Source: Hypoxylon rubiginosum
Lineage: Eukaryota > Ascomycota > Sordariomycetes > Xylariales > Hypoxylaceae
Length of the DNA stretch: 64,000 nt
Reading direction: 5' to 3'
Assembly: GCA_902806565.1 (NCBI GenBank)
Contig: CADCXA010000039.1
Span: 1 to 64,000, forward strand
Position 1 is the first letter of the stretch. Each line of letters opens with the position of its first letter. This document shows positions 47,124 to 51,166 of the stretch, one piece after another. The position numbers and the translations under genes are program-made. A model generated the notes under the pieces. That model did no database searches and was not told the origin of the DNA. It saw only the letters and a program-made list of their open reading frames with translations.

Positions 47124-49227
47124 ATGCCTATCACGTCACCAGACCGATTTGTGCCCTTCCCGCTCCAGGAAAACCGCTTTCGAGCCACCAAGCAGCCTCA
47201 TCAGCTATCGCCATCGGAACGTCTACACCGGACCGACGACATTTCGGAAATATTCTGCTTTACCCCGAAGCGTTCGACTCCCGTGCCCGTCCGGCGACCC
47301 TCCCTGTCGGATGGCGATCGGCGTGTTGGCACCGTTTTGGGAGTAAACGACACGGACCGGCAGGTCAGCAACGGCGCCGTCTGGTCCGTAGGCGGCTTGG
47401 CACCCGGAGGTGGCGGCGTTGATGATGGACGCGGCCGTCGGGTAAGTTCCGGCACGAACGCACGCCTCTACACCACTTCATTTTCGAACGCCCGCCCCAA
47501 ATCGGAGGAGGAGCAGGAGAAGCATGAGGGTCGTCTCGCCTTAGCGCTCAAGATAGATCGCGTTCAACGAATCCTAGACTTCGACGGGTACTCCACCTTT
47601 CCTCGCTACAAACATAGAAGCAGACCCTTGCTGCGGGAAACGAAGACGAGCTGGACGGGAAGCGAATGGAGCTGCGACTACCACATGCCAAGTCAGTGTC
47701 TCGTGCCGTCTCGCATTACACGTAATACGTGTATTACAAACATTACTGAACCAAGCTAACGTGGCCTTAGGGGTGCAAAAAGAAGAACGGATTCTTCCCA
47801 ATGCTCCGTTCAAGTGCGTGGACTCCCTAGCAGACTAGCATTAACAATAGTATAATTGTTGCTGTTATTAACAGCTCTCTAGAGTCTTAGATGCCCCGGG
47901 ACTCCGAGACGACTTCTACTGCTCGATCATGGCCTACTCGCGCACGTGTAGCACTTTGGCAGTCGGGCTAGGCAATCTACTCTACGGGTGGTCAGAGTCC
48001 TCGGGCGTCACGCTCTTGAATGCTGGAATTAAAGATGGATCGTGGTTAACTTCGGTGGCATTCTCGTCCGACCAAGGCGGCAAATCAATCCTGGCATTTG
48101 GCCGATCGAGCGGACTGCTCTCCTTGGTGTCGTTATTCGATAGCCTTCTACCTCGCTTCGAAGCGTACCACCCCGCGCCGATAGCTTGCCTCTCGTGGCG
48201 TCCCGCCGTGACTACGCGGCCTACACGAAACAGGCGCAACCCCGGGGTCCTGGTCGAGACGGAAGACCTTCTCGTAGGCGACGATATGGGTGACGTCTAC
48301 TACTATTCGGTCGAGTGGCCTGAGCCCTAGGAGGTGGCTCGCCAAAATTGGCATGGCTCGATGATTTTGCTCGCTCGCATCAAGGTTCACTCTCAGCAGA
48401 TATGCGGCCTCGCTTGGTCTCCCGACGGCGAGCAGTTTGCTACGGGTGGCAACGACAACCTGTGCTGCCTCTTCAACGTAGACAGCGTCACGGAAGAAGA
48501 GGCTATCCTGGGCCTAGGCCTTGGCAAGTCACCGGCCACAGATTCCCCTACCGGCTCCGAGGCTACTTTTTCGTTTGCCGTCAGTTCAGAGATGGGTGCC
48601 CTATTCTCGTCTCCCGAGGTGGTACCCGACTTTCCCAACCCCCTCTGCGCCATGAAGTACCTGACTGTCGGTTCTGAGAAATACCGGTGGCGTCATGGAG
48701 CGGCCGTCAAGGCTATCGCGTTCTGCCCCTGGCGCCAGGGGCTTGTTGCCACCGGCGGAGGATCCAATGATAAATGCATTCACTTTTATCATACGACTTC
48801 GGGAGCCGCGCTCGCGACCATCTCGGTAGCGGCGCAGGTCACGTCCCTCATCTGGAGCACGACTCGGCGGGAGATCGTGGCTACCTTCGGGTACGCGCAG
48901 CCGGACCATCCTTACCGAATTGCCGTGTTTAGCTGGCCAGACTGCCGCCAAGTTGCCGCGGTGCCGTAGGAAGGCGAACATCGCGCTCTATATGCCATAG
49001 CGTACCCCGGAGGCCCGAGCGATATGTACCGGACCAAGGACAGACTAAAGAGCCGCACGGCGGAGGAAGGCTGCATCATCGTGGCGAGCAGTGACGAGAG
49101 TGTCAAGTTTCATGAGGTGTGGATAGCAGGTCGCAAGGCAACCAGCTTCGGCAGCGGTGTCCTCGCTGGGAGCGATATCTTGGAGATGGGAGAGGGTATT
49201 GACAAAGAGGGTGACGTGATTCGGTGA
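47124..49227 (+). CDS. ama1: Meiosis-type APC/C activator (Ama1/Cdc20-Cdh1 family) with two in-frame UAG codons
   Basis: Three exons, 47124-47691, 47771-47813 and 47883-49227 (introns 79 and 69 bp), code 651 positions. The N-terminus contains the C-box DRFVP (residues 7-11). After splicing, HMPRVQKEERILPNAPFK leads into LDAPGLRDDFYC, the conserved entry to the WD40 propeller. Blades include WSPDGEQFATGGNDN and FCPWRQGLVATGGGSNDKCI. The protein ends with Ile-Arg, the IR tail that docks on APC/C. Such activators select substrates for ubiquitination; the Ama1 branch acts in meiosis and sporulation. Two TAG codons, 48328-48330 (codon 353, EWPEP-stop-EVARQ) and 48967-48969 (codon 566, AAVP-stop-EGEHR), interrupt an otherwise undamaged frame. 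Tryptophan is the expected residue at both sites. Sexual-stage A-to-I editing is the preferred explanation. The alternative is a recent pseudogene. Confidence 0.85.
48322..48340 (+). other. Predicted hairpin presenting the first UAG
   Basis: GAGCC (48322-48326) pairs perfectly with GGCTC (48336-48340). The nine-base loop CTAGGAGGT contains the UAG, with the A at 48329. A small stem with the editable A in the loop, U before it and G after it matches the published preference of fungal A-to-I editing. Confidence 0.6.
48957..48985 (+). other. Predicted hairpin presenting the second UAG
   Basis: An outer CGCG/CGCG pair (48957-48960 with 48982-48985) and an inner TGCC/GGCG pair (48962-48965 with 48973-48976, including one G-U) enclose the loop GTAGGAA. 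The A of the UAG is at 48968 in the apical loop. Confidence 0.55.
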
Positions 49228-50490
49228 GAAAAAAGGGGGTGAAGAAAGGTACTACGTATGCAACAACATAGCATTGTTCCGTAGTGAATTAGACAGGTAG
49301 GCCGTATGGCAATAAAAACGCCCATTTATCTCGGTATGACTATCTGTATTATACTACCTAGTGGGATTCTCCTATGCTTACAGGATACAAGTCATTATAG
49401 TCTAGCTATACAGATGATAATAATGATGATGATATGACTCACAGCGTCGGAGTGCGTATCAACGTTCAGACTCCCCAGATGGAACTCGTGCTCAAGTCAG
49501 CTGCCCAACGGTAACAGGATATTACATACGGAATACGTAGCTGATAGGAATGAGTGTTGGCACTGAATGATCTTGTTCTCTGAGAATATAATTGCATTCA
49601 CTTCCATATATACCTACGTGTAGTTACAATAAATACCTTTCACGATATGGATATGCAGGGTCCAGGCAGAATACCTATACCCTAGGCTAGGATGTAGGCA
49701 TTGTGATCGATGACAAACAACAAATGAAGCCTTCGGAGCTGTGCTTTGTCGGAGAACGGAGTCATACGATGGATAGATACATATCGCTATATTACTAAAT
49801 AAAACCTCGGCAGCGCGCTAATACGTTTCCAGCTCGGTCACGTCCATCAATTGCTGACCCACCACTGATAGCAAGAAGGAAGAAGAGGGAGCCCCGCCTT
49901 GTGCTGCTTGTCCCGCCCCCTCATCCGCTTTTTACTACGTACTATACTATGTATGTACAGTATGCCCAGGTGTACAGCCTTAAGATAGAGGGAGCAAGGG
50001 GAGGTACATGACCTAAATTCTGCAAGGTTCTGGTGGTTTTGGGTCATCAAAGCCAAATCACCTGCACCTATTTGGGCACCGGAAAGGTACGACGTGTGTA
50101 AGGTGCAAGGTGCAGAAGGTACGAATGTAATCCGTTCCGTTTCGATGCTTGAATGCTGCCTTGGGCTTGGGTTTCCGCTCAACTCATTCACATTCTCTAA
50201 CTCTCTAACCCCCCCACCACGCAACCTTGACTTCTGCCTTCTACCTTTCTACCTTTTTCTGCCTTTTGCCTTCGATCTCTTCGACTTGTAACTTTTAAAC
50301 CTCAACACCTAAACATTTCGACATTTTACGTTTCTCCTCCTTTACTTCTCCATCCACATCAACCCCTCGTCAAACCGAAAATCATTCCATCAACCTTTCT
50401 CCTTTTTCATCCTCGGCCCTCGATTTTCTATCGACCATAAACGCCGTATTCTCACATCGTCACCAGCAACGAACGATAATCGTCGTCAAG
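49228..50490. other. Intergenic and atg8 leader
   Basis: No gene was seen. The final 280 bp before atg8 (about 50210-50490) are strongly pyrimidine-rich with long CT stretches, typical of the promoter and leader of highly expressed fungal genes. Confidence 0.45.
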
Positions 50491-51166
50491 ATGCGATCCA
50501 AGTTTAAGGACGAGCACCCCTTCGAGAAGCGCAAGGCCGAAGCCGAGCGCATCCGCCAGAAGTATGCTGACCGCATTCCGGTATGTATACCTTCATCCAG
50601 CCTACATCCATATTCTCTTTATTGACCCTATTGACTACATCATCACCTTTACTGTTCCTGTCATCTTCACCTTTGTATTGCTACTACTATCGTCATCAGC
50701 ATCCTAAATCCCCCAAAGCTATCACCCTCTCTTCTATACATCCCCTACACCGCCTTTGTTTTGCTCATCCATCTCGCATCTCTTCCACTTTCCGCAAATT
50801 CCAAATTCCAATTCTAACTGCTTGCAAACAGGTCATCTGCGAAAAGGTTGAGAAGTCCGACATTGCCACCATCGACAAGAAGAAGTATTTGGTTCCCGCA
50901 GATCTCACCGTAGGCCAGTTCGTCTACGTCATCCGGAAGCGAATCAAGTTGTCTCCCGAGAAGGCCATCTTCATCTTCGTTGACGAGGTCCTGCCTCCTA
51001 CCGCTGCCCTCATGAGCAGTATCTACGAGGAACACAAGGACGAGGATGGGTACGTTAATCTTCTCCCTCACTTCCCCCTTTTTGCCGTCATAAGCTAATA
51101 GACTGGTCGGCTAGATTCCTCTACATTACCTACTCGGGCGAGAACACGTTTGGCGAGGCTATCTAA
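50491..51166 (+). CDS. atg8: Autophagy ubiquitin-like protein Atg8
   Basis: Three exons, 50491-50580, 50832-51049 and 51115-51166 (introns 251 and 65 bp), give 119 residues. The sequence begins [20 protein letters not shown] and contains [20 protein letters not shown] and [20 protein letters not shown]. It ends YSGENTFG followed by EAI. Cleavage after Gly116 by Atg4 would expose the glycine that is conjugated to phosphatidylethanolamine on the phagophore. The length is right for the family, and both exon joins (RIP-VICEK and DEDG-FLYIT) preserve the conserved order. Atg8 drives autophagosome expansion and binds cargo receptors. Confidence 0.98.

Follow-up and report, generated by a model that had tools for sequence, protein, structure and literature searches.

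Gene Structure and Identity

The analyzed window is a stretch of 64,000 nucleotides of the Hypoxylon rubiginosum genome (contig CADCXA010000039.1, positions 1 to 64,000 of the forward strand). At positions 47124-49227 it contains a gene that was identified as AMA1. The gene consists of three exons, which together comprise 651 codons followed by TGA, and has the following structure:

47124..47691, + strand, AMA1 exon 1: ATG start; C-box-like DRFVPF at 47142-47159; supported by homologues
47692..47770, + strand, intron 1: GTCAGT ... GCTAAC ... TTAG
47771..47813, + strand, AMA1 exon 2
47814..47882, + strand, intron 2: GTGCGT ... TTAAC ... CTAG
47883..49227, + strand, AMA1 exon 3: CDC20/Fizzy WD40 domain, both TAG codons, IR tail at 49219-49224 and TGA at 49225-49227

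The internal stops of the 651-codon frame are TAG 353 and TAG 566 alone, and no frameshift was found. Over positions 47870-49235, the other two frames contain 17 and 14 stops, respectively, and the AMA1 frame contains the two TAG codons and the final TGA. Inspection of the protein by eye located the sequence DRFVPF, which we take to be the C-box, at residues 7-12, and the C-terminus ends in DVIR, where the terminal IR presumably represents the IR tail.

In a domain search, exon 3 matched PF24807 (CDC20/Fizzy WD40) with 205.8 bits at a cut-off of 200. An AlphaFold model of exon 3, whose residue numbers are offset by 204 from those of the full protein, has a mean pLDDT of 74 (~91 near the first TAG codon and ~58 near the second one), and the folds nearest to it are those of Slp1, Cdc20 and Cdh1. 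According to the model, 11 of the 29 predicted strands lie ahead of the first stop and 25 of the 29 ahead of the second; therefore, either stop would remove part of the WD40 domain together with the IR tail.

The top protein matches, among the best 120 of 1272, were those of Hypoxylon cercidicola (90%), Hypoxylon sp. FL1150 and H. rubiginosum, and in a quick protein tree the query clustered with these three at an SH-aLRT of 100. Among the matches listed, some homologues bear the names Bcama1 or meiosis-specific AMA1. Judging from these sequence data, the gene is an AMA1-type APC/C activator of the Cdc20/Fizzy family, to which a meiotic role may be ascribed by analogy. The initial annotation had described a 651-position frame with a C-box, WD40 blades, introns and an IR tail, free of any other stop or frameshift, and had assigned it to a meiotic activator of this kind; the exons, the PF24807 match, the motifs, the Cdc20/Cdh1-like fold and the AMA1-named homologues all agree with this description.

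A search of the genome (48.3 Mb, 70 contigs) with the H. cercidicola protein found the AMA1 gene and distant Cdc20-family paralogues (31-46% identity) only, which indicates that AMA1 is a single-copy gene; the existence of a second intact copy was considered and rejected on these grounds. Together with the AMA1-named homologues, these separate paralogues place the gene nearer to AMA1 than to Cdc20/Cdh1. The gene immediately downstream on the same strand, from position 50583 of the window onwards, presumably encodes ATG8, as recognised from its translation.

Tryptophan in Homologues at the Positions of the Two TAG Codons

The two in-frame stops are located in exon 3:

48328..48330, + strand, site 1: TAG in frame as codon 353, where homologues have Trp; A48329 is the candidate for editing
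48967..48969, + strand, site 2: TAG in frame as codon 566, where homologues have Trp; A48968 is the candidate for editing

The codon contexts are CCC-TAG-GAG at site 1 and CCG-TAG-GAA at site 2, as had been described earlier. Since TAG 353 is the first internal stop, unedited reading would end after 352 residues.

For comparison, the best 120 of 1272 homologues were divided according to their names into Xylariales in the wide sense (65 rows) and all others (55 rows), and every row was kept. The unnamed proteins P0098, P0111 and P0116 were placed with the Xylariales by similarity beforehand, in agreement with the tree, and the other unnamed proteins were counted among the others. Outside Xylariales, position 353 in these best 120 of 1272 is Trp in 53/55 rows, with Tyr in P0093 and Ser in P0118, and position 566 is Trp in 53/55 rows, two being gapped. 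The initial annotation had expected Trp at both TAG codons, and the orthologue alignment bears this out. The two rows gapped at 566 are P0082 and P0089 (Lachnellula, Leotiomycetes), i.e., the codon is absent from annotations outside Sordariomycetes as well.

In the first search, none of the best 120 of 1272 proteins belonged to Hypocreales by name. A search with a shorter query, the length filter of which drops most long Leotiomycetes and Sordariales proteins, yielded eight Hypocreales rows. The 56 additional rows from this search, drawn from the best 120 matches, were kept out of the 65 + 55 counts; they contain 51 Trp, 2 Leu, 2 Tyr and one gap at position 353, and 55 Trp at position 566, with one protein ending before it. 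In the Hypocreales rows (order assigned from species names), Trp occupies position 353 in 8/8 and position 566 in 7/8 sequences, and the Cosmosporella protein P0289 stops exactly ahead of 566.

The frame was also compared on both sides of the stops. Identity to the H. cercidicola protein is 98% (132/135) over residues 200-352, 99% (137/138) over residues 354-405 and 480-565, and, past the second stop, 96% (82/85). GC3 values before, between and after the stops are 0.65, 0.68 and 0.66, respectively, and the RIP indices of the AMA1 gene are not raised. The high identity and the steady GC3 after the stops fit a translated full-length protein.

Missing Codons in Xylariales Relatives

Among the 65 Xylariales rows (best 120 of 1272 homologues), 47 annotated proteins are without codon 353 and 28 are without codon 566. 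Both codons are absent in 24 rows, 353 only in 23 and 566 only in four, and the remaining 14 rows have Trp at both positions; the TAG codons of the relatives are thereby deduced from residues missing in annotated proteins, not from their DNA. The borders of the removed stretches vary, site 1 showing 13 different ones and site 2 showing 10, and the columns common to all removals are 348-353 at site 1 and exactly 566 at site 2. Varied borders around a shared codon are what gene predictors produce when they are forced to avoid a stop. Erroneous introns that dodge PSC sites have been described as an annotation error for PUK1-like genes (PMC4817773), and the PSC site of CHE1 is reported to be dodged with small annotated introns in some species (PMC11169179). 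The pattern as a whole points to mis-annotation of many AMA1 proteins of Xylariales in the databases.

Of the 107 deletion runs in Xylariales rows, 86 include a Trp column, versus 44.5 expected, and none of 2000 simulations reached 86; outside Xylariales, the corresponding number is 2/8 versus 1.0 expected. Some runs have a border at exactly Trp 617, where three rows start and one ends (Daldinia FL1419 and EC12, H. crocopeplum, FL0641), so Trp 617 is possibly a third PSC site in some Xylariales. The Truncatella row P0288 is likewise without residues 611-620.

To place these states on the phylogeny, a protein tree was built without the affected columns, and the fewest state changes within Xylariales were counted and compared with 300 label shuffles per site. 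Site 1 required 6 changes versus 15.9 in shuffled data, and site 2 required 10 versus 21.8. The numbers being lower than in the shuffles, the site states follow kinship, and stops at sites 1 and 2 seem to have been gained or lost repeatedly across Xylariales. In the nearest relative, H. cercidicola, codon 353 is missing and site 2 is Trp. Consequently, the idea of two independent locks put forward in the initial annotation holds for the present genome, which carries two TAG codons, but does not extend to its nearest relative.

Sequence Context and Predicted RNA Folding

According to the published data on F. graminearum, edited adenosines have U at -1 and are preferentially followed by G at +2 and by A/G at both +3 and +4, and U at -2 as well as G at -3 are slightly favored; in 61-nt windows, 62.4% of the edited sites fall into hairpin loops. 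Both TAG codons of the Hypoxylon gene have U at -1 and are followed by G[AG][AG] (UAG-GAG and UAG-GAA). Among the 16 Trp-position codons of AMA1, this trinucleotide follows just the two TAG codons, for which the chance is 1 in 120. The preference at -2 and -3 is seen at neither site, where CC (site 1) and CG (site 2) precede U. The following structures were predicted:

48322..48340, + strand, predicted RNA hairpin at site 1: the loop contains A48329 (P 0.95 for flanks of 30 nt)
48962..48976, + strand, site 2, possible anticodon-like hairpin: stem of 4 bp and 7-nt loop GUAGGAA, with the A as third loop position

The loop probability of site 1 is 0.79-1.0 with flanks of up to 100 nt and 0.10 with flanks of 200 nt; in the 61-nt window, 6 of 70 UA sites score above it for a hairpin loop. 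At site 2, the loop probability is 0.01 in the 61-nt window, i.e., with the 30 nt flanks of the published window. The site falls into a 6-7 nt loop with flanks of 10, 12 and 20 nt and no longer does so with flanks of 25 nt or more. A 4-bp stem such as that of site 2 is reached by 3 of 70 UA sites, a comparison chosen after the fold had been seen. In an anticodon loop, U33 and A34 likewise occupy the second and third loop positions; the likeness of the modelled site 2 hairpin to such a loop is only suggestive.

PUK1-like Kinase and Candidate Editing Machinery in the Same Genome

Analysis of the genome revealed 141 kinase matches, 14 of which contain TAG. Thirteen of them were extracted (C59:268815 was left out), and by eye the TAG was judged to lie inside or on the border of what looks like an intron in 11/13, one further match being PUK1-like. 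The frame of this kinase (C24:814300-815700, L045) reads ...YDARCD-TAG-TGG-SVG, and the A of its TAG is predicted to lie in a hairpin loop. The N. crassa PUK1 orthologue is reported to contain UAG-UGG in the kinase domain. From these tandem codons, we infer by analogy that the PUK1 editing site would correspond to the WW pair of this kinase. Among the 120 PUK1-like homologues listed, WW is present in 85, including several Sordariomycetes, and 26 are without both residues, as are all of the five nearest homologues; P0153, P0184 and P0216 end exactly ahead of the first Trp of the pair. The last of the thirteen, a kinase-like frame (C41:357412-358038, L049), has TAG and TAA in the matched stretch; because the TAA is not restorable to a sense codon by editing of one A, the gene has perhaps decayed or is interrupted by introns.

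As for the editing machinery, the genome encodes a Tad2-like protein (L022) with HAE...PCVMC and a Tad3-like protein (L028) in which HAA replaces HAE. Four loci with a DUF726 (Ame1-like) domain were detected. Where the MV pair of Ame1 is expected from its distance to the catalytic Ser, the four loci have SL, AN, GV and AR, so that MV itself is found in none of them at this distance-counted position and GV is the closest. The stops TAG and TAA in the DUF726 locus C19:309694 were discarded as candidates, since by eye they sit in an intron. In addition, five matches to OTT_1508-like deaminases, the family of OLD enzymes, were found (C27:250562, C66:1668761, C42:314790, C11:213691 and C65:515763). 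As to other genes known to carry PSC sites, no stops were detected in the matched stretches of four candidate DNA methylase (RID) loci or of one candidate SPO22 locus.

Proposed Editing of AMA1 and Alternative Explanations

The missing codons in relatives and their coincidence with Trp columns, the Cosmosporella protein that stops ahead of 566, the conservation past the stops in a single-copy gene, the downstream context, the hairpin loop at site 1, the PUK1-like gene with TAG, the Tad2, Tad3 and DUF726 homologues and the known editing of FgAMA1 are all in favor of the UAG-to-UGG editing suggested in the initial annotation. Several observations speak against it: site 2 leaves the loop with flanks of 25 nt or more and site 1 with 200 nt, U at -2 and G at -3 are missing at both sites, H. 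cercidicola has Trp at site 2 and 14 of the 65 Xylariales rows have it at both, 85 of the 120 PUK1-like rows have WW, the DNA methylase and SPO22 stretches are free of stops, and the DUF726 loci do not show MV. We consider it probable (about 0.82) that this AMA1 orthologue, with two UAG codons at conserved Trp codons, is A-to-I edited to UGG in sexual development. During this stage, adenosines 48329 and 48968 would be deaminated to inosine, presumably by a complex of the Tad2-Tad3-Ame1 type, and both edited codons would be read as UGG (Trp). The full-length WD40 activator with the IR tail would then be made only where editing is active, and translation of the unedited mRNA, proposed in the initial annotation for vegetative cells, would end inside the propeller. 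The editing itself, its stage, its enzyme and the function of the stops as a switch are what we infer from the genomic sequence.

It might be supposed that the TAG codons sit in short genuine introns or exitrons and are removed by splicing, as the annotations of relatives have it. Indeed, in rows of Hypoxylon, Daldinia, Annulohypoxylon and Jackrogersella, codon 353 is missing in 16/16 (best 120 of 1272), and splicing combined with editing is reported for FgBUD14. However, the borders differ among relatives in the 13 and 10 ways described above, and the residues removed at site 1 are kept in 55/55 outgroup rows and extend into predicted WD40 strands. The 57-nt candidate intron 48274..48330 (+), equal to the gap 335-353 in the H. 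cercidicola annotation, was rejected, as it would drop conserved residues; it shows no branch-site match under a pattern that matches both real introns, and its GC content is 0.56 versus 0.46 and 0.41 in the latter. Splicing is thus considered very unlikely. Stop-codon readthrough or a UAG suppressor tRNA, which would put an amino acid at both sites, is equally compatible with conservation past the stops. A known readthrough signal, UAG-CUA, is absent, the context here being UAG-GAR; moreover, it is specifically Trp that is conserved at both sites, and the downstream editing context is matched, which leaves this explanation at the same very low probability as splicing.

The least probable of all is a young or old pseudogene, possibly created via RIP (G-to-A in TGG). 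A single transition suffices to convert TGG to TAG, but the 651 codons are otherwise intact and the RIP indices are normal. Furthermore, the conserved parts on either side of site 1 retain 98-99% identity to H. cercidicola, with 96% after site 2, and the same codons are absent across Xylariales rows in a pattern that follows kinship. A different kind of objection concerns the enzyme and the stage, namely that the mRNA is edited by a deaminase of the OLD type (OTT_1508-like) that a virus or stress induces, not by Tad2-Tad3-Ame1 in fruiting bodies. The five OTT_1508 deaminase matches in the genome make such an editor a live rival, and OLD enzymes are reported to favor hairpin loops and U at -1 likewise (PMC12754623). 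Against this, the literature describes PUK1 editing in F. graminearum as perithecial, lists FgAMA1 among the genes edited in sexual development and assigns the sexual-stage editing of this species to Tad2-Tad3-Ame1. An OLD-type editor is accordingly rated as highly improbable, slightly above the pseudogene and slightly below splicing and readthrough.

Returning to sexual-stage editing, a further and rather doubtful extension may be offered tentatively: the UAG lock on AMA1 might be selected in itself, an editable stop being mostly kept throughout Sordariomycetes but moving between Trp codons (353, 566, perhaps 617 and 87), independently in Xylariales and Hypocreales. The switch would then be maintained, not the site, and two locks could mean tighter control.

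Significance and Comparison with Known Systems

Restoration of AMA1 by A-to-I editing is already established in F. graminearum, according to the papers citing the original work. The Hypoxylon gene contributes a further lineage, two sites that both lie in the WD40 domain, and signs that the same Trp codons were hit repeatedly in Xylariales and once in a Hypocreales species. Among the papers searched for editing in Xylariales or Hypoxylon, no report on either group was found; the search led instead to a transcription-factor study in F. graminearum. Our analysis extends the stop-restoring editing of a meiotic regulator to Xylariales as a strong candidate. In this gene, dozens of sequenced species seem to carry one stop, two or none, and with this natural series one can ask whether selection keeps the stops as developmental switches or whether they are neutral changes that the existence of editing makes tolerable.

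The closest known system is FgAMA1 (FGRRES_10728) of F. graminearum, one of about 70 PSC-edited genes of this fungus, which has an in-frame UAG and needs A-to-I editing for the full-length protein (Hao 2019, as described in citing papers). The report on the Fusarium AMA1 orthologue mentioned in the initial annotation is real. Both genes encode an AMA1-type activator with an in-frame UAG; the Hypoxylon gene has two sites, both in the WD40 domain, while the number and position of FgAMA1 PSC sites were not found in the literature searched. PUK1 and its N. crassa counterpart NCU03242 are similar in that UAG is reported at Trp codons of a sexual-stage gene, with two stops in F. graminearum PUK1. 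However, PUK1 is a kinase with tandem stops, whereas those of Hypoxylon AMA1 are 213 codons apart. CHE1 of Fusarium, which a later commentary regards as homologous to zao (OLD-ZAO system), shares with AMA1 a conserved PSC site that annotators dodge with small introns in some species (PMC11169179), but differs in that it is reported to be edited in vegetative hyphae.
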